A DNA stretch of 64,000 nt from Phycisphaerales bacterium. GTDB taxonomy: Bacteria; Planctomycetota; Phycisphaerae; Tepidisphaerales; Tepidisphaeraceae. Below are positions 48,584-56,277 of this stretch, one piece after another. Each line of letters begins with the position of its first letter. Positions within the stretch are counted from its first letter, which is position 1. The DNA is taken from NCBI GenBank assembly GCA_020847545.1, contig JADLBV010000026.1, forward strand, positions 1 through 64,000, given 5' to 3'. The notes under the pieces were generated by a model. That model did not search any database. It had not been told where the DNA came from and worked only from the letters and a program-made list of their open reading frames with translations. The position numbers and the translations under genes are program-made.

Positions 48584-49201
48584 TCATAATGAGGGTGGGT
48601 GCAAATTGGCAGGGTCGATGGGCAATTCGGCCGTGTGAAGATCGGCCCACATGGCGGCCTCCCCATCGAGCGGGCTGCGGATGTTGTATGCCTGATAGGC
48701 GATCATCTCGCCGATGCGGATGACCAGGTCCACCAGCCGTTCGCCGGCGGTCCAGTGATCGCCCACGCAGATGGTGGCCGGGTCGATGTTGGGATGAAAA
48801 ATGGGGGTGAGCATCCGGCATTTGGGGGCTAGTCGCGGGTAATCGGCGGTCAATTGAATTTCCACCTCGTGGCGGTCGCGCCGGGCCGGTTTGCCATCCG
48901 TGGCGCGATCAAGCCCCCAGACACGATACGCGATGCGATACAGATCGGGTGGATCGCCTTGGGTGTGGATGATTTTGATCGCGGGAAAATCCGCAAACGC
49001 ATGGGCGATCTGCTGGGCGTCGGCCGTCAAACGACGATATCGTACGCCGGGCTTGGCGACGGGCGCTGGATCAGATACAGATTTTGTGGCCGTGGGGACG
49101 GTGATTGTGGCCCCGCAACCTTTGCACTTGGCGGATCGCCCGGCATAGGCATCGGGGACGCTGAAAGATTTACCGCAACCTGTACAAGCAAACTCAATCA
49201 T
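48584..49201 (-). CDS. E2-like (UBC-fold) conjugating enzyme with N-terminal zinc ribbon
   Basis: 205 residues from ATG 49201. Residues 1-35 are a zinc ribbon (C6, C9, C26, C29). Residues about 55-190 read as a UBC fold. YPRLAPKCRMLTPIFHPNI (121-139) contains the HPN triad (H136-P137-N138). ICVGDHW follows with C145 at the thioester-cysteine position, seven residues after the HPN asparagine as in eukaryotic E2s, then the helix LVDLVIRIGEMIAYQAYN. It would accept a ubiquitin-like protein from the E1 and transfer it to targets. Last gene of the minus-strand operon, 21 nt after the FHA/RING gene. No ribosome site is visible, so translation may depend on the upstream genes. Confidence 0.85.
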   Translation of the reverse strand: MIEFACTGCGKSFSVPDAYAGRSAKCKGCGATITVPTATKSVSDPAPVAKPGVRYRRLTADAQQIAHAFADFPAIKIIHTQGDPPDLYRIAYRVWGLDRATDGKPARRDRHEVEIQLTADYPRLAPKCRMLTPIFHPNIDPATICVGDHWTAGERLVDLVIRIGEMIAYQAYNIRSPLDGEAAMWADLHTAELPIDPANLHPPSL

Positions 49202-49222
49202 AAATAACGATTTCAACAGTAT

Positions 49223-50158
49223 TTACCGCATCGACCACAATGGACGGCGCAGCCAGAACGAATAAGAAAACACGATCCCCGCCGCCAAGCCAACCAATGA
49301 GACCAGCAACGCGCCGGCCGCCAGTTTTCGATGTTGGCGCGTGCGAACGAGATATATTCCGTCAATCAAGCTCGTGACCAGCGCGGTCAGGCCAAATGTG
49401 AACATCCCCAGCACGGCGGCGAATAGACTCGATGCCAGCAACAACAAAGGCCAATGGTGTTGCGCGTTGGTGGGCGCATCATCCTCGACGGCTTGTGATA
49501 TGGGCGCTGTATCTTCCGGCCCACCCAATATGTCCACCTGATCGCATCCATAGGCCGCACATCCCCGGTTTTCGGCCCAGCAATCCGCATGATAAATATG
49601 TTTGCAGGATGGACAGGAGGTGGTTTTTTCACCGGACAAAATGACGCACTGACAAATACTGCAAGCGGCTTGGCCGGCCGATGCGACCACGGGTTTGGGT
49701 TGTATGACGGATTGTGGAATCCGCACCGATCTCCCGCAATGCAGGCATCTTCCCTTTGATCTGGCGTGATTGGGGCTGACCCACAACGGCGCGCCACACT
49801 CGCAATTGAAGAGCGTACCGGCAGACTCGGCCGAATCTTTACGATCCAGTGTCAACATCCCTTCGGGCAATTGGTCGCTGAGATGGAAGGTGATCCGCGT
49901 CGGGCCGATTTCGATCTGATCCCCATCGGCCAGTGGTTGTCGGCCGGTGGCTGATTTTCCATTCAGTTTGACACCAGTGCGCGAAGAATTATCGGCGACA
50001 TAAAACCGATCCTTGTCGCCATCAAACCACGCATGGATTCGCGACACCGCGACATCGTTGATGATGATGTCATTGGTCAACCGCCGACCCACCAGCAACC
50101 GGCCTTCCAACCGGCAGCCAACCTGACCATCGTGTTGTTGAATGATGAGCGTCGGCAT
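49223..50158 (-). CDS. FHA + zinc ribbon + RING-like + membrane protein (candidate E3)
   Basis: 311 residues from ATG 50158. FHA domain at 1-95 (GRRLTNDIIINDVAVSRIHA with S39, R40, H42; then NSSRTGVKLNG). Zinc ribbon C119/C121/C138/C141. A binuclear treble-clef RING-like domain has C166, C169, C182, C185, H190, C193, C200 and C205 (spacing Cx2C-x12-Cx2C-x4-Hx2C-x6-Cx4C), close to the prokaryotic RING family. Two transmembrane helices follow near 236-262 and 280-302. In a ubiquitin-like pathway such a protein would hold an E2 and a phosphorylated partner at the membrane. It follows the polytopic FHA gene with a 5-nt gap. Confidence 0.82.
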   Translation of the reverse strand: MPTLIIQQHDGQVGCRLEGRLLVGRRLTNDIIINDVAVSRIHAWFDGDKDRFYVADNSSRTGVKLNGKSATGRQPLADGDQIEIGPTRITFHLSDQLPEGMLTLDRKDSAESAGTLFNCECGAPLWVSPNHARSKGRCLHCGRSVRIPQSVIQPKPVVASAGQAACSICQCVILSGEKTTSCPSCKHIYHADCWAENRGCAAYGCDQVDILGGPEDTAPISQAVEDDAPTNAQHHWPLLLLASSLFAAVLGMFTFGLTALVTSLIDGIYLVRTRQHRKLAAGALLVSLVGLAAGIVFSYSFWLRRPLWSMR

Positions 50159-50163
50159 GATCT

Positions 50164-51432
50164 TCAACCAGCGGCCGCGGCCTTTGGTTTTTCCTGGAAT
50201 GTGAAGGTGGTGGCGCCGATCTGGATGCGGTCGTTGTTGCGCAGCCGTGTCCGCTGGACCGGCCGGCCATTGATCAGCGTCTGTCCGCCCAGCGGCAAAT
50301 CCTCGATCTCATACCCGCCGGGAACAATGTGGACGGCCGCATGACGACGCCCCACCTGCGGGTCTTTGAACAGATAAATCGCGCATTGAAGCGATGATCC
50401 GATGTAAGTTGGATTGCGATAAAGGACAAACTGTTTTCCGGCGATCAGCCCGGCGCTGACCTTCAACCAGCCGGATTTGACGACATTTTCGATCAATCCC
50501 GTGCCGAATCCCGCGATCGCGCCGATCATCACCACCCCCACCAGCCGCGACAAATGGGCATTGCCGGTATTGACGGCGATGAACTCATATAGCACGCCAC
50601 CCACCACTCCGCCGACCAACCCGCCCACCATGCCGACGAAAAATTTTCGCCCGTTTCGCATCACCAGCCCCGGCGCGATGCTCAAAAACAATCCCAACAC
50701 CGCCCACGACCCCGCGCGGGCCAATATTTGTCTGGTTTGGGTGGCGATGGCCGGATCCCCTTCGATGTATCGAAACACCCGATCCACACAAAACGCCGCC
50801 GCGATGCCGCCGGCCAGCCCCAAAATCGCCCCCACCGATCCATTGATAATCGCGGCCTGCGCGTTGCGCTGAACCATCGCCTCGGCCATCGCCAGACACA
50901 TGGCGATCATCATCCCGGCGATGGAATAAAACAGAACATTGGCGACAAATTCATCCCATTCCTCACCCGCGGCCACTTGTGCCCGGCGTTGCCCCTTTTC
51001 AATTTCCGACAATGAACGATTGGCCTCAATCGCGTAATACGGATTGTTTTGAGCGACGCGGTCAATCTGCAAGATCGCCGCATCCGCCTGAGATTCGGTT
51101 AGCCGGCCGTCGTTGCGGTCCTGTAGAATCTGCCGACGTGCGTCGATCCATTCGCGCGCCTCGGTGCGGGCGTTTGGCCTAAAATGCAACACCTCGCCGC
51201 ACGCCCACCCCAACATCCCACCCAACAGACCAAACAACGTCATGTAGACCAGCGTGTTGTACCAAAGACCCGCCGATGCACGGGCCGGCTGAGGATGGTC
51301 CGCCACCGGCAGCATCTGCAATTCCTGGCTGGCACCGGCCAATGCCTCCTGCTGGCGCAATTTCTCATCGATACGCGGGTTGTTGATCTCATCCCACGAA
51401 ATGGTCATGGGTTGGTCATTAGAACTTAACAT
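50164..51432 (-). CDS. Polytopic membrane protein with C-terminal FHA domain
   Basis: 422 residues from ATG 51432, overlapping the JAB gene end by 7 nt; the frame continues to 51504. An N-terminal cytoplasmic part (1-56) is followed by a helix at about 57-83, a long charged helical loop (85-160), and then about five hydrophobic glycine-rich helices (165-185, 195-215, 240-258, 264-285, 296-315). The FHA domain is at about 333-415 (YIGSSLQCAIYLFKDPQVGRRHAAVHIV, INGRPVQRTRLRNNDRIQIG) and binds phosphothreonine. Likely scaffold bringing the conjugation machinery to phosphorylated proteins at the membrane. Inferred from context. Confidence 0.8.
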   Translation of the reverse strand: MLSSNDQPMTISWDEINNPRIDEKLRQQEALAGASQELQMLPVADHPQPARASAGLWYNTLVYMTLFGLLGGMLGWACGEVLHFRPNARTEAREWIDARRQILQDRNDGRLTESQADAAILQIDRVAQNNPYYAIEANRSLSEIEKGQRRAQVAAGEEWDEFVANVLFYSIAGMMIAMCLAMAEAMVQRNAQAAIINGSVGAILGLAGGIAAAFCVDRVFRYIEGDPAIATQTRQILARAGSWAVLGLFLSIAPGLVMRNGRKFFVGMVGGLVGGVVGGVLYEFIAVNTGNAHLSRLVGVVMIGAIAGFGTGLIENVVKSGWLKVSAGLIAGKQFVLYRNPTYIGSSLQCAIYLFKDPQVGRRHAAVHIVPGGYEIEDLPLGGQTLINGRPVQRTRLRNNDRIQIGATTFTFQEKPKAAAAG

Positions 51433-52175
51433 AATCGCACCCAAGATTTCTGTAGTTCGATCAACAAAGCGGATTGATTGCCACCCATCCAAAACAACAT
51501 CCAAAGCGTCCAGGCGATCAGCGCCAGCACCAGCAGCAGAATCAGTATGACAATGTAAATGCCCATCTTCCCGCCCAGTGGCTTGGAATCGACCACCGGT
51601 GTTACAGGCACTGGTTGTTCTCCAGCAGGTTTATCGGATTGAACAAGAAATGCCTTGCGGACCGGTTTGCCATCATCCCAGACAAACGACCCTTCATCCC
51701 CCCCCAGCGGGTCATACACAAACGCCACCTGCCAGGGGAGATCAAAAAAACTTTGGTGAATGAAAAGGTCCATCCCCGACAGGAAGATGCCAAACCCCGG
51801 ATGGGTGTGATACCACCCGACGATTTTGCGATCCGGATAGAGGCGGTCCATCTCCGCCTGAATGTGCGTCCAAGTCTCGGCCGTGAAGGTGACATTGGCG
51901 CTGGCGCTGGTGGCGTTTTCGCCTCGAATACACGCTTCAACGTGCAGATACGGCCCCGCATCATCCCGACACGGCATCCCAACCAATACGCCGCACACCT
52001 CCGCATCACGGCTGGACTGGCCGTGAGTGTGAATTTCATCCAGCACCGATTGGCGCATGATGGCCTGAAATTCCCCCTTTCGACGCCCAGCCACTTCCGG
52101 CAAGGCACGAAAGTCGAATTGAGTAGAATCCAGCGCGGCCGGGCCGCTGTTTTGGGATGGAGAATTCAGGTCCAC
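51426..52175 (-). CDS. JAB1/MPN (JAMM) metalloprotease with C-terminal transmembrane helix
   Basis: 249 residues from GTG 52175, supported by AGGAGG 8 nt upstream. JAMM motif complete: E59 (AEVCGVLVG), H123-x-H125-x10-D136 in GWYHTHPGFGIFLSGMD, the zinc-site pattern of deubiquitinase-like isopeptidases. Residues 204-231 form one transmembrane helix (MGIYIVILILLLVLALIAW), anchoring the enzyme with the catalytic domain in the cytoplasm. It would trim the ubiquitin-like protein or remove it from targets. Overlaps the E1-like gene by 10 nt and the FHA gene by 7 nt. Confidence 0.88.
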   Translation of the reverse strand: MDLNSPSQNSGPAALDSTQFDFRALPEVAGRRKGEFQAIMRQSVLDEIHTHGQSSRDAEVCGVLVGMPCRDDAGPYLHVEACIRGENATSASANVTFTAETWTHIQAEMDRLYPDRKIVGWYHTHPGFGIFLSGMDLFIHQSFFDLPWQVAFVYDPLGGDEGSFVWDDGKPVRKAFLVQSDKPAGEQPVPVTPVVDSKPLGGKMGIYIVILILLLVLALIAWTLWMLFWMGGNQSALLIELQKSWVRLC

Positions 52176-53404
52176 TGCAAATCCTCCTGCCCACCATGCA
52201 AAGACCCCAGCACCGCCTGGGCATCGCCTGACAATTCCAAACCAATCGCCCGATCCGCGGTGCGGGCGATGAGACTATCAAATGGGGGAATCCCGATTAG
52301 TGCGGGCGTGCGGCCTAAAAAATCCTCCTCGCCGGTCATTTTGTAAAACGTCCGCACCTGACGCTTGGTATCCGCACATCGCGGACACGCCGCCCGGTCG
52401 GCCGAGATTCGCCCCAATGATGCGAATATCTGCTCCTCATCGCCGCAATTCGGGCATACCAGTTTTTCAAGAATGTCCCGCCCCAGCTCAAGTTGCGCCC
52501 GCGAGCCAAGATGCTGCCGCGCGATCTCCAGCAATTTTGCCAGTGTGATCGTGTTGGCCGTCTCCTCCAGCGTCACCACCGACTCCAATGGATCATGGCT
52601 CAGACAATCGGCCTTACGCTGATATTCCACTTGATAAGAATCGGTGGATAATCCCGCAAAATTCCAACCCCGCCCCCCGATCGTCTCCATGCCATGAATG
52701 ATCTTCAGCGCCTCCTGACATTGCACGCCGGCGATGATTGAACTGATCGTCGGCGTCGTCGGCGTTTTACCCCCTTGCATCTCCTGTTGAGACAGGAGGT
52801 TGCATGAACGCCTGCTTTGCAGCAGTTTCCAATCGGTCTGCGACATCGTGCATTCATAGCACGGCCCATCGGGCACAAAAACACGCGCCACACCCTGAAT
52901 CTGCTCAATCGCCCCATCAATCCAGGGTTTATTCAGCTTGTAACAGGCCCGGTTGATCGCCAGTCGTGCTTCGCGGTTGTCCAACCCGCCAATCACGACA
53001 TCCGCCCAGCGATAGACCCCCAGCCCCAGATCATGCACCACATTGCCATCAAAATGGTTGACGCGCATGGCGGGGTACAAATCCCGCGCCGCCGTCGCCG
53101 CCACTTGTGCCTTGGATTTGCCATTGTCGGCGGCACGATAGAGCACCGAGCGGGACAAATTGGAATTTTCGATCCGATCCAGGTCCGCAATCAGCAAATT
53201 TCCGATACCCAGCAACGCCAGATTCTTGATGATCTCATTGCCCAGCGCCCCGGCGCCGATGACCAGCACCTTGGCTTGGGAGAGTTTTTCCTGATCCCAC
53301 CATGAGATCAGGCGAAATCGATCAAACCGATCCTCCTCCACCGAAACCTTGAGGATCGGTTCATCCGATTGTTCGTTTTGGAATGACGTATTGGAGCGGG
53401 TCAT
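52166..53404 (-). CDS. E1-like (ThiF/MoeB-fold) ubiquitin-like-protein activating enzyme
   Basis: 412 residues from ATG 53404 (the frame reaches 53476 inside the Ubl gene). Adenylation domain: GAGALGNE at 50-57, ATP/Mg residues D74 and D76 with N82 and R85 (LIADLDRIENSNLSRS), K96/K98 and D142. Zn cysteines C182 and C185 (GPCYEC). C201, in RRSCNLL before the helix SSIIAGVQCQEALK, is the best candidate for a thioester cysteine. A C-terminal extension of about 130 residues carries a second zinc site (C317, C320, C340, C343). It would adenylate the Ubl C terminus and pass it to E2. Starts 7 nt after the Ubl stop. Confidence 0.87.
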   Translation of the reverse strand: MTRSNTSFQNEQSDEPILKVSVEEDRFDRFRLISWWDQEKLSQAKVLVIGAGALGNEIIKNLALLGIGNLLIADLDRIENSNLSRSVLYRAADNGKSKAQVAATAARDLYPAMRVNHFDGNVVHDLGLGVYRWADVVIGGLDNREARLAINRACYKLNKPWIDGAIEQIQGVARVFVPDGPCYECTMSQTDWKLLQSRRSCNLLSQQEMQGGKTPTTPTISSIIAGVQCQEALKIIHGMETIGGRGWNFAGLSTDSYQVEYQRKADCLSHDPLESVVTLEETANTITLAKLLEIARQHLGSRAQLELGRDILEKLVCPNCGDEEQIFASLGRISADRAACPRCADTKRQVRTFYKMTGEEDFLGRTPALIGIPPFDSLIARTADRAIGLELSGDAQAVLGSLHGGQEDLQWT

Positions 53405-53411
53405 GGATGAT

Positions 53412-53681
53412 TCATCCGGCCGTAATTTCAGGTTGCAACCGCAGCACATCCCCTTCTTTGACGCCGATTTCCGCAAGGGTCTGATGATCCAGCAATTGTT
53501 TGCCGGTGGCGCGATGATGAAACTTATAGCTCAAGATTTGACCATCAGGCCCATATTGCGGAAAATTCATCTTTTCCAGCAACACCGCCAGGATTCGGTT
53601 GACCGGCGCATCGTCCGGCATCTGCACCTGCTGGCGTTTGTTGCCGGTGGCGTCCCAAATCTGGACGGTCAACATGCCCAT
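53412..53681 (-). CDS. Ubiquitin-like (beta-grasp) protein
   Basis: 89 residues with a strong AGGAG 8 nt before ATG 53681. The order of strands fits a beta-grasp fold: LTVQIWDATGNKRQQVQM, helix NRILAVLLEKMNF, SYKFHHRATGKQLLDHQTLAEIGVKEGDVLRLQP. The last part (LADLGVxxGDxLxL pattern) is the hallmark of ubiquitin-like and YukD-like proteins. The C terminus is PEITAG: a single terminal Gly preceded by Ala, not GG. First gene of the operon, followed by E1, JAB, FHA, FHA/RING and E2 genes, so it is the likely conjugated modifier. Confidence 0.84.
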   Translation of the reverse strand: MGMLTVQIWDATGNKRQQVQMPDDAPVNRILAVLLEKMNFPQYGPDGQILSYKFHHRATGKQLLDHQTLAEIGVKEGDVLRLQPEITAG

Positions 53682-54093: not shown

Positions 54094-56277
54094 ATGCAAA
54101 AGAATAAACAAGCATTGACGTTGTATGAGCCAAGGACATTGGCCGTACCCCCCGCGCCCGAACCGGTGTCGCATGATGCCATGGTGCAGATCATCTGGCG
54201 GCAGCGCCGGGTGGTCATGGTCGCATTGGCGGCAAGTCTGCTGATTGGCGCGCTCTATCTGGTGACGGCCAAACGCCTCTACACCGGCGAATCGAGGCTT
54301 TATGTCGAGCAATCCGGGCCGAAGCTGATCAAGGATGGGGAAACCCGCGTTTCCGAGAATTACCTCAACACACAGTGCGAATTGATCAATTCCACGCCTA
54401 TTTTGGCGCTGGCATTGTCAACGCCGGAAGTTCGGGCGATTCCTTCACTGGAAAAGATCAACACGGTCTGGCTGAAAAAAGAGTTATTGGTTGAACCAGG
54501 CAAGCATGATGACATCATCACGGTGTCGTTGGAACTACCCGATGCGGTGGGCGCTTCGACTTTGGTGAACGCCATCGTCAACTCCTATGTGACTTATCAG
54601 ACCAACCACCGACGCGACACCGCCAACGAGGCGTTGGCGATCCTGTCGGCCGAGAAACAAAAACGTGACGAGGAGCTGCAAGCCAAGGTTCATCAGTTGT
54701 TTGAACTCAAGGAATCGGCCGGCACGCTCTCATTTGACAATGACCGCGGCAATCCGATCCTGCAACGACTGGCAAGTCTTTCTGAAGCCCTGACGGCCGC
54801 ACGAATGGAGACCGTCAACGCCAAGTCCGATTACGAGGAAGCCCGCCGCATCCTGGGCAACGACCCGGAAAAGCTCAAGCAGGTGGAACACCAGCAGAAC
54901 TTGAGCGGCGTGGCTGTGGCATCGGTCGCCGAGGCCAATCTCATCCGAAGCCAGCTCTTCGCGATGCAGCAGCAGTTGGAAGACCTCAAACGGCAATACA
55001 TGCCCGAACATCCGCTGGTCCGCACGCAGCAACTGCGGGTGGATCAACTGACCGTGGCGTATGTCGCGGCCGCCTATCAACGCTGGAATACATCCAAATT
55101 GCGTGAGGAGAGCCTGCAACAGGCCTTTGACGCCCAGCAGAAACTCGCGTTGGAACAATCCACCAAGGCGGCGCAATACGCCCGCCTGGATGCGGAAGTG
55201 AAACGCCTGCAACAGGTTTCCGACGGTCTGGAGACGCGCATGCGGGAACTGAGCCTGCAAGGCGCTTCGGTCCTCGATATCAACGTCCTGGAGACCGCCC
55301 ACCCCGATACGCACGCCACCAGCCCCAACATCATGCGGGTGCTGGTGCTGGCGCTGGTGGTGGGTCTGGTGCTGGGGATCATCAGCGCGTTCATTCGCGA
55401 CTGGATGGATCAGCGGATGCGGTCGCTGGATGAGGTGAAGGCGACATTGGGCATGCCGGTGCTTGGAACCGTACCGCAGATGCCGGGGGTTTTGTCACCC
55501 CAGATGCGTGGCACGCGCGTGCAACTGGAACCGACATCGGATGTGGCCGAGGCGTATCGCAACATTCGCACGGCCGTCTATTTCGGTCTGACCGAAGGTC
55601 GAGCCAAGACGGTGCTGATCACCTCCCCCTCCGCCGGCGACGGCAAGTCCACGCTGGCCAGCAACCTCGCCATCGCCATGGCGCAGGCGGGCCAGCGCGT
55701 GCTGCTGATCGATGCCGATTTCCGCGATCCGACGCAGCACAAGACGTTTGAAGTGGATGATGCCGTGGGCCTCTCCAGCGTGTTGTGCGCCGGTTTCAGC
55801 ATCGACAAGGCCACGCGGCCAACCGCCGTCAGCGGGCTTGATCTGCTGCCGTGCGGCCCGATCCCGCGCAACCCTTCGGAAATTCTCAACAGCCAGGGTT
55901 TCAACGACATCTTGGGCGATCTGGCGGCGAAGTATGACCAGATTCTGCTCGACAGCCCGCCGGTGTTGGCGGTGACGGATGCCCGCATCGCCAGCGCCGC
56001 CTGCGAAGTGACACTGCTGGTGCTGAACGCGGAAAGGTCCAGCCGCAAGACGGCCGAACTGGCCCGCGACAGCCTGTTGGCGGTGGGCGCCAACATCCTG
56101 GGCATCGTTGTCAACGATGTTCCCCAGAATGGCAACGGAGAAGGATTTCACAGCAAATATGGTTACTACGGTCATGCCGACGCCAAGGACAATGACCGTT
56201 CATCCGGCGCGGTGCGCCAGATACAGAAAAGTTTTAGTGGATTGAAACTGGTGAACCAGTCCGGCGGACGCGCCTGA
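54094..56277 (+). CDS. Polysaccharide co-polymerase / BY-family tyrosine kinase (Wzc-like)
   Basis: 727 residues. Wzz-type N-terminal domain with transmembrane helix at about 46-64 (VMVALAASLLIGALYLV), long coiled-coil region (about 200-400) and a second helix near 412-432. Cytosolic kinase: Walker A SAGDGKST (513-520, K518), Walker A' LLIDADFRD (D540, D542), Walker B QILLDSPP (D620). A small tyrosine cluster, YGYYGH (689-694), is available for autophosphorylation. It controls export and chain length of the exopolysaccharide. First gene of the plus-strand cluster. Confidence 0.93.
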   Translation: MQKNKQALTLYEPRTLAVPPAPEPVSHDAMVQIIWRQRRVVMVALAASLLIGALYLVTAKRLYTGESRLYVEQSGPKLIKDGETRVSENYLNTQCELINSTPILALALSTPEVRAIPSLEKINTVWLKKELLVEPGKHDDIITVSLELPDAVGASTLVNAIVNSYVTYQTNHRRDTANEALAILSAEKQKRDEELQAKVHQLFELKESAGTLSFDNDRGNPILQRLASLSEALTAARMETVNAKSDYEEARRILGNDPEKLKQVEHQQNLSGVAVASVAEANLIRSQLFAMQQQLEDLKRQYMPEHPLVRTQQLRVDQLTVAYVAAAYQRWNTSKLREESLQQAFDAQQKLALEQSTKAAQYARLDAEVKRLQQVSDGLETRMRELSLQGASVLDINVLETAHPDTHATSPNIMRVLVLALVVGLVLGIISAFIRDWMDQRMRSLDEVKATLGMPVLGTVPQMPGVLSPQMRGTRVQLEPTSDVAEAYRNIRTAVYFGLTEGRAKTVLITSPSAGDGKSTLASNLAIAMAQAGQRVLLIDADFRDPTQHKTFEVDDAVGLSSVLCAGFSIDKATRPTAVSGLDLLPCGPIPRNPSEILNSQGFNDILGDLAAKYDQILLDSPPVLAVTDARIASAACEVTLLVLNAERSSRKTAELARDSLLAVGANILGIVVNDVPQNGNGEGFHSKYGYYGHADAKDNDRSSGAVRQIQKSFSGLKLVNQSGGRA

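Follow-up and report, generated by a model that had tools for sequence, protein, structure and literature searches.

A membrane-linked ubiquitin-like conjugation operon in Phycisphaerae with a candidate FHA–RING ligase and a proposed envelope role

Bacterial operons combining a YukD-type ubiquitin-like modifier (Ubl) with an E1, an E2, a JAB protease and a RING protein, Planctomycetes included, were reported by Burroughs et al. in 2011, as summarized in PMC4197634, and planctomycete E2s were described by Arcas et al. in 2013, as cited in PMC5493775. The rarity claimed in the preliminary description of the locus treated here was therefore overstated. In archaea, an operon of Caldiarchaeum subterraneum comprises Ub, E1, E2, RING and an RPN11-like JAMM protease (as summarized in PMC4197634), and an archaeal E1/E2/RING cascade has been reconstructed in vitro (as outlined in PMC5654768). 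For the RING-bearing bacterial gene sets predicted in 2011, no experimental test was found in the literature.

The RING of the Caldiarchaeum operon is a small separate protein, and we know of no FHA or membrane components from this operon. The BilABCD and Bub systems carry Ubl, E1, E2 and JAB within a single operon as well; to our knowledge, they include no RING, FHA or membrane proteins, and we are aware of no RING ligase in the bacterial ubiquitin-like systems that have been studied. A further point of comparison is type VII secretion (T7SS), whose YukD/EsaB/EccD proteins and FHA-bearing EssC share the YukD-type beta-grasp, FHA and membrane parts with the present locus but come without E1, E2, RING or JAMM, whereas the locus holds a full conjugation set. 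A T7SS reading of the YukD-type Ubl was rejected because EssC/EccC ATPase and WXG100 genes are missing at 41.7–48.6 and 54.1–64.0 kb.

The window analyzed here, a 64,000-nucleotide stretch of DNA from a Phycisphaerales bacterium, carries at 48584–53681 on the minus strand six ordered open reading frames for a YukD-type Ubl, an E1, a JAMM/JAB protease with a transmembrane (TM) helix, a polytopic FHA protein (FHA-TM), an FHA–zinc ribbon–RING–three-TM protein and an E2. Counted from the likely starts, the intergenic gaps are 7, −10, −7, 5 and 21 nt, in agreement with the gaps of at most 21 nt or short overlaps first described; a promoter and terminator scan gave nothing above chance. Ubl, E1, E2, JAB and RING are encoded together, in an order kept in relatives, and the E1 and E2 catalytic cysteines, the E2 HPN, the JAMM motif and the eight RING zinc ligands are intact, all catalytic and zinc-ligand residues checked being invariant among relatives. 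Values of dN/dS between 0.06 and 0.22 indicate purifying selection on all six genes. The preliminary description had read from the DNA a complete, membrane-linked set of modifier, E1 with candidate Cys, E2 with HPN and thioester Cys, JAMM and RING, and this reading is borne out by Pfam and PDB profile matches, by invariant residues and by predicted TM segments in the JAB, FHA-TM and RING proteins. A conjugation cascade of Ubl, E1, E2, RING and JAMM is well supported at the level of sequence, and we infer with considerable confidence that it is active in conjugation.

Compared with the 2011 operons through their summary in PMC4197634, the locus shares the five core enzymes, the Prok-RING_1 family, Planctomycetes hosts and a sporadic distribution, and differs in the FHA-RING-TM and FHA-TM proteins, the protease fusions, a short motif, the Ubl tails and the linkage to a Wzc gene. 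New relative to that summary are the links between RING and protease, the recurrent KIxISxDDI-type motif and the family-wide Wzc/exopolysaccharide linkage.

The Ubl (53412..53681, minus strand) is a YukD-type beta-grasp protein of 89 aa that ends in ...RLQPEITAG and matches Pfam YukD (PF08817) at 9.8e-10, above the cut-off. It is the most conserved protein of the set (60–87% identity), far above its partners. PEITAG occurs in 38/38 Ubls of the class, with the C-terminal Gly at a fixed, exposable position, and in about half of these Ubls the Gly is followed by an unconserved tail of 2–51 residues. In the window, PEITAG ends at residue 89 (ORF numbering), and the Ubl is made without a tail. An invariant PEITAG together with unconserved tails after the Gly is the pattern expected of a processed, conjugated modifier.

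The E1 (52166..53404, minus strand; the ORF can extend to 53476) has a ThiF-type adenylation domain, with matches to Pfam ThiF at 1.7e-53 and, by profile, to UBA7, UBA1 and UBA3 in the PDB at about 1e-34 to 1e-30. Its candidate thioester residue, Cys225 (RRSC), is invariant among the aligned relatives, as are C206, C209, C291 and H294, a likely zinc site. The C-terminal domain (about residues 300–430) carries two further CxxC pairs and is possibly UFD-like. In the predicted model this domain has high confidence and the remainder, adenylation domain included, is poor; a Foldseek search with this poorly modeled E1 gave a full-length alignment to UBA3.

The E2 (48584..49201, minus strand) joins an N-terminal zinc ribbon to a UBC domain that matches Pfam UQ_con at 4.9e-9, above the cut-off, and UBE2C-type E2s in the PDB by profile at 5.6e-9. 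H141-P142-N143 and the catalytic C150 are invariant across 27 aligned sequences. It is the sole E2 found in the genome, in which no other UQ_con or Prok-RING_1 protein was found. The JAB/JAMM protein (51426..52175, minus strand), a putative deconjugase or processing protease, matches Pfam JAB (PF01398) at 5e-12 and RPN11 by PDB profile at 6e-18; E59, H123, H125, S133 and D136 are invariant in 16/16 sequences, and a C-terminal TM helix is predicted at about residues 198–232.

The candidate E3 (49223..50158, minus strand) consists of an FHA domain, a zinc ribbon, a C4HC3 RING and three TM helices. YukD, ThiF, JAB, FHA and UQ_con were all matched in the Pfam check; Prok-RING_1 reached 1e-3 for the window protein, below the cut-off, and 32–42 bits for its homologues, above the cut-off of 29.1. 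The eight zinc ligands (C169, C172, C185, C188, H193, C196, C203 and C208) are invariant in 16/16, and an I or V sits between the first two zinc cysteines in 15/16, at the residue where RINGs touch the E2. The AlphaFold model is well folded (mean pLDDT 82, three TM helices); its Foldseek search returned FHA domains alone among the matches listed, so that support for the RING fold comes from the sequence, the zinc ligands and the model. An FHA followed by a RING in one polypeptide is also the layout of the eukaryotic phospho-directed ligases RNF8, CHFR and Dma1, which the protein resembles by design, its own distinctions being the C4HC3 Prok-RING and the three-helix membrane anchor. Relatives carry a RING protein joined to a trypsin/HtrA-like protease in one fusion (RING-TM-trypsin), or have a TM-trypsin gene within a sister operon.

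Phosphothreonine (pThr) reading had been proposed for both FHA domains, and only one of them keeps the pocket for it. The FHA of the RING protein (Pfam FHA, 5.5e-13) has a canonical pThr pocket, with GR and SRxH kept in 8/9 FHA-bearing sequences, and the host genome encodes six Ser/Thr kinases. Homologues aligned from beyond Phycisphaerae lack this domain, which marks phospho-reading as specific to the lineage and leaves it outside the conserved core; the chances that the RING-linked FHA gates the ligase are about even. The FHA-TM protein (50164..51432, minus strand) has an N-terminal ITISWDEI-type motif, about five predicted TM-like segments and a C-terminal FHA (Pfam FHA, 1.5e-11), whose key pThr-binding Arg is lost in 16/16 homologues and whose canonical pThr residues are missing. 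Judged from its residues, this domain looks unable to bind pThr, and a reading in which both FHA domains recognize it was rejected.

The co-occurrence survey, named earlier as a check that could refute the description, found the six genes staying together across Phycisphaerae, with the core recurring in Planctomycetia and Kiritimatiellae. The system is present in 18/26 genomes of the window's family versus 6/272 elsewhere in the class and, phylum-wide, has a patchy occurrence in 25/294 genomes. Around the operon (41.7–45.0 and 54.1–64.0 kb scanned, 45.0–48.6 kb read from the sequence) lie genes for a branched-chain amino acid ABC transporter, an M24 peptidase, UbiA and exopolysaccharide (EPS) functions. 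A Wzc-type chain-length protein/tyrosine autokinase (54094..56277, plus strand; TIGR01007 above cut-off), a linked neighbor and not an operon member, is divergent from the Ubl gene and heads an exopolysaccharide cluster with WecG, a polysaccharide synthase, glycosyltransferases and Wzy downstream. With this gene context on the envelope side, the earlier suggestion of an envelope process more than a phage defense is better supported than before, still as an inference.

As the best explanation of the whole, we moderately favor a phospho-gated membrane Ubl ligase acting in envelope regulation; an envelope role as such also seems rather probable. The JAB would trim tailed Ubls to expose ...ITAG, a step that the window Ubl, tailless as made, would not need. 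The Gly would then be adenylated by the E1 and loaded onto Cys225, and the Ubl would pass to Cys150 of the E2. At the cytoplasmic membrane face, the FHA-RING-TM protein would recruit the loaded E2 while its intact FHA binds a Thr-phosphorylated partner, so that the Ubl would be attached to a lysine. The polytopic FHA protein may serve as a membrane hub whose ITISWDEI motif docks the Ubl as SUMO- and Atg8-interacting motifs do, and the TM-anchored JAB would remove the mark. The output would be control of exopolysaccharide assembly in the window's family, where the Wzc linkage is conserved, and quality control of envelope proteins in lineages with a RING–HtrA-like protease fusion. Only tentatively do we propose a pathway devoted to the envelope and not to immunity, with a phospho-gated transmembrane FHA-RING ligase, its own Ubl-docking motif and coupling, according to lineage, to Wzc/exopolysaccharide control or, across the membrane, to a periplasmic HtrA-like protease.

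It is possible, if somewhat doubtful, that the Wzc linkage reflects ancestral gene order and that the system is generally regulatory and unrelated to exopolysaccharide. Only one family shows the linkage, which was not seen in the five other positive class members compared (L105, L107, L114–L116). Against this, the divergent Wzc adjoins the operon in 15/18 positive family genomes, the window included, keeping its place while being very divergent within the family (E-values 1e-29 to 0), whereas beyond the E2 no gene is conserved in position among these genomes.

It is fairly unlikely that the Ubl directs proteolysis for envelope quality control, with tagged membrane proteins degraded by HtrA-like or other proteases. 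The RING–trypsin-like fusions, the TM-trypsin genes of sister operons, the prediction of RING and protease on opposite membrane sides, and the other trypsin_2 proteases and HslV-like protein of the host genome all speak for it. However, the window operon itself lacks a protease gene, and with the protease predicted to be periplasmic and the tagging cytoplasmic, a coupling between tag and protease is not obvious. No 20S proteasome was seen in the genome; a proteasome link was discarded, as the sole match looks like HslV.

A role in phage defense like that of the Bil/Bub systems, in which virion or host proteins are tagged during infection and the membrane proteins and the relatives' protease act as effectors, is unlikely. 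Studied bacterial Ubl–E1–E2–protease operons appear to be mainly phage-defensive (PMC12687455), the patchy phylum-wide occurrence would suit defense, and the E1 has distant, weak PADLOC matches (E1-E2, 6.9e-18; BilD, 5.6e-9). The other proteins reached 3.8e-3 (E2) and 2.1e-6 (JAB), and the Ubl matched only MzaE (0.015); PADLOC gave no Bil match for Ubl or E2, the BilABCD composition is absent, and the set as a whole has no convincing match, which upholds the difference from Bil-type systems noted at the outset. Moreover, within the window's family the system is near-core and its chromosomal synteny is fixed, no defense genes were recognized in flanks that hold the ABC transporter and the EPS cluster instead, and neither the Ubl in plasmids nor the E2 in phages found a match. 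BilA is a tandem Ubl with two domains (PMC11354881), in contrast to the single-domain, 89-aa window Ubl. It is very improbable that the Ubl serves as a scaffold without being conjugated, or as a sulfur carrier, like T7SS YukD or ThiS/MoaD: its best Pfam family is YukD and the E1 also resembles ThiF/MoeB, but a dedicated E2 (HPN and Cys) and a JAMM accompany it, the E1 has an extra Cys and a C-terminal domain, and Ubl tails extend beyond the invariant Gly.

Under the favored reading of a membrane Ubl ligase, about 5 kb holds the full eukaryotic logic of modifier, E1, E2, RING and JAMM together with phospho-recognition and membrane anchoring, so a single operon allows tests of how RING-type ubiquitin signaling originated and how it works in its minimal form. 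The protease and Wzc links offer concrete hypotheses on the targets that the pathway controls. A motif common to several components suggests, in addition, that bacterial Ubl-interacting motifs may exist. Its pattern is [KP]-[ILM]-x-[IVL]-[ST]-x-[DE]-[DE]-[ILVT], the window copy is PMTISWDEI (51385..51411, minus strand), and the chance that it docks the Ubl is put at slightly below even. The KIxISxDDI-type motif recurs on several unrelated operon proteins of relatives: a position weight matrix trained solely on the FHA-TM protein matched 17 other operon proteins, versus about 1.9 expected from shuffles, and 1/327 flanking controls.

Six genes packed on the minus strand between 48584 and 53681, as reported in the preliminary description, were confirmed by ORF calls and by Pfam. 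The HMM check proposed there placed all six proteins in families: the Ubl is YukD-type, the E1 ThiF, the JAB protein JAB, the FHA-TM protein (FHATM) FHA, the RING protein FHA plus Prok-RING_1, and the E2 UQ_con with an N-terminal zinc ribbon. With the likeliest starts, Ubl and E1 are separated by 7 nt, E1 and JAB overlap by 10 nt, JAB and FHATM overlap by 7 nt, and gaps of 5 nt and 21 nt follow between FHATM and RING and between RING and E2. The window is part of a 3.75-Mb draft genome, and a Phycisphaerales MAG was its closest relative found in public data; compared with the nearest relative, each of the six genes shows purifying selection (dN/dS 0.06–0.22).

Conserved residues are found in each enzyme, and the biochemical reading of the operon is strong. 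Among aligned relatives, the E2 keeps FHPN and a single Cys seven residues later (27/27), the JAB protein E59 and HTHPxFGxFLSxxD (16/16), and the E1 CYEC, RRSC, C291/H294 and, within the C-terminal domain, another two CxxC pairs (all 14/14); Cys225, within RRSC, is the candidate thioester residue. Profile matches extend to eukaryotic UBE2C-type E2s (5.6e-9), to UBA7/UBA1/UBA3 for the E1 and to RPN11 for JAB (6e-18). Conservation within the set is highest for the Ubl, with 60–87% identity compared to 19–42% for the RING proteins, a range that leaves out a same-genus homologue at 83%. All 38 Ubls of this class of system carry the PEITAG terminus; about half end exactly there, and the remainder continue for 2–51 unrelated residues past the Gly. 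The combination of a fixed Gly and disposable tails is, at the level of sequence, the signature of a modifier that would be trimmed and then conjugated, and for this reason conjugation of the Ubl is considered highly probable.

The window RING protein scores below the Prok-RING_1 cut-off, which its homologues exceed, and its eight ligands, spaced C-x2-C-x12-C-x2-C-x4-H-x2-C-x6-C-x4-C in the window protein, are invariant in 16/16 aligned sequences. The protein models well (mean pLDDT 82): an FHA, a zinc ribbon and the RING are followed by three TM helices at the C terminus. In eukaryotic RNF8 and CHFR the FHA likewise precedes the RING, and the RNF8 FHA was also among the matches obtained. The idea that both FHA domains read phosphothreonine holds only in part: in the RING protein, the Arg and Ser that bind pThr are retained by 8/9 FHA-bearing sequences, whereas FHATM, with its FHA at the C terminus and about five TM-like segments, has Ser or Ala in place of the Arg in 16/16. 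FHATM would therefore be a structural hub or bind something other than pThr. A zinc-ribbon Ser/Thr kinase directly upstream of, and divergent from, a Planctomycetia operon (L068:5601-7112) is a candidate phosphothreonine writer. The JAB protein has a C-terminal TM helix. The aligned RING proteins from outside Phycisphaerae have no FHA, and some have DUF805 in its place; at four loci (L018, L014, L015, L017) the RING is joined to a polytopic membrane domain, DUF805-like or of another type, which shows a swapped anchor with the RING retained.

An E2-seeded search returned 30 loci from Phycisphaerae, Planctomycetia, Kiritimatiellae and Victivallales. The six genes co-occur in other Phycisphaerae genomes, and the order Ubl-E1-JAB-FHATM-RING-E2 is maintained in complete loci; in Planctomycetia the order is the same, the RING proteins number one to three and additional zinc-ribbon TM proteins are present. 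Across 294 genomes of the phylum, the Ubl occurs in 25 and an E2-profile match in 40, several of which cover the zinc ribbon only; where both occur they mostly lie close together. The system is near-core in the window's family (18/26 genomes) and sporadic elsewhere (6/272 in the rest of the class), and a dedicated E1 was also absent from the four system-negative family members checked. In one genome (G376) the operon is split, with Ubl and FHATM on one contig and E1 on another. Loci L103 (in this genome) and L106 (G411) hold Ubl with FHATM only, or Ubl alone, with E1 on a different contig, which suggests that Ubl and FHATM can occur as a pair apart from the enzymes.

The last RING gene in Planctomycetia often encodes a RING-TM-trypsin-like protease (L025, L066, L067, L069, L070) with TN[RK]HV and GNSGGG intact, and L026 reads similarly. 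Pfam gives Trypsin_2 at 4e-22 and 2.5e-20 in L025 and L069, with Prok-RING_1 above cut-off in both. Four loci (L012, L017, L019, L020) have a separate one-TM protease gene immediately before FHATM, with Pfam support in L012 and L019. The TM count predicts a periplasmic protease and a cytoplasmic RING. The window operon contains neither such a protease gene nor a RING-protease fusion, and trypsin-like proteases are present elsewhere in its genome.

Divergent from the Ubl gene lies a Wzc-type tyrosine autokinase (54094..56277, plus strand; TIGR01007 above cut-off) heading an exopolysaccharide cluster. This neighbour recurs in 15 of the 18 positive family genomes, the window counted, and a few genes off in one more; its position is kept although Wzc sequences diverge greatly, and seven loci share a second gene on the exopolysaccharide side. 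Beyond E2, where a branched-chain amino acid ABC transporter was read in the window, no gene is positionally conserved among the positive family loci. Since the Wzc side is conserved and the E2 side is not, a functional or promoter link is favoured over chance, within this one family. Reasoning from the whole, we regard an envelope role as fairly probable. The main rival is an anti-phage function: Bil/Bub systems, which appear to be anti-phage (PMC12687455), have Ubl, E1, E2 and JAB in common with the operon. However, no recognised defence genes were seen among its neighbours, the Ubl had no plasmid match and the E2 no phage match, and no PADLOC system fits, making this function unlikely. The discovery of relatives of this operon in Planctomycetes, Actinobacteria and Acidobacteria is attributed to Burroughs et al. 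2011 in PMC4197634, which in 2014 termed them uncharacterised; some architectures noted here may already appear in that work. By comparison with those operons and with Bil/Bub, the operon falls within the predicted RING-bearing kind, as a membrane/FHA variant, and is not a Bil system.

A KITISWDDL-like pattern, hydrophobic-x-hydrophobic followed by acidic residues, recurs at the N-termini of unrelated operon proteins. A PWM trained on 16 FHATM N-termini alone exceeded threshold in 5/33 E1s, 4/31 E2s, 2/51 RING proteins and 6/14 extra operon proteins, against 0.2–0.4 expected per class from shuffles and 1/327 flanking control proteins; these counts are indicative, the threshold having been fixed after a first pass and the L020 operon bounds corrected by hand. 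Because it resembles SUMO- and Atg8-interacting motifs, we propose it as a putative Ubl-docking motif. The SIM-binding groove of SUMO is common to none of the prokaryotic systems found so far (PMC12687455).

A related compact four-gene class, E1/Ubl/E2/JAB (L078, L080, L081, L087, L090, also L076 and L085), lacks RING and FHATM, has Ubl termini that are mostly VAG (PEIVAG or STFVAG) and is apparently a separate bacterial Ubl system in the same phylum. At L071:8610-11705, the E2 reading frame continues into several Cys-rich zinc-finger-like repeats; the long ORF has an upstream portion that resembles a frame artefact, which leaves the fusion a putative one. A third class (L084, L086, L117) combines a zinc/RING-like protein, E1, E2 and JAB with a divergent Ubl ending in DAG.
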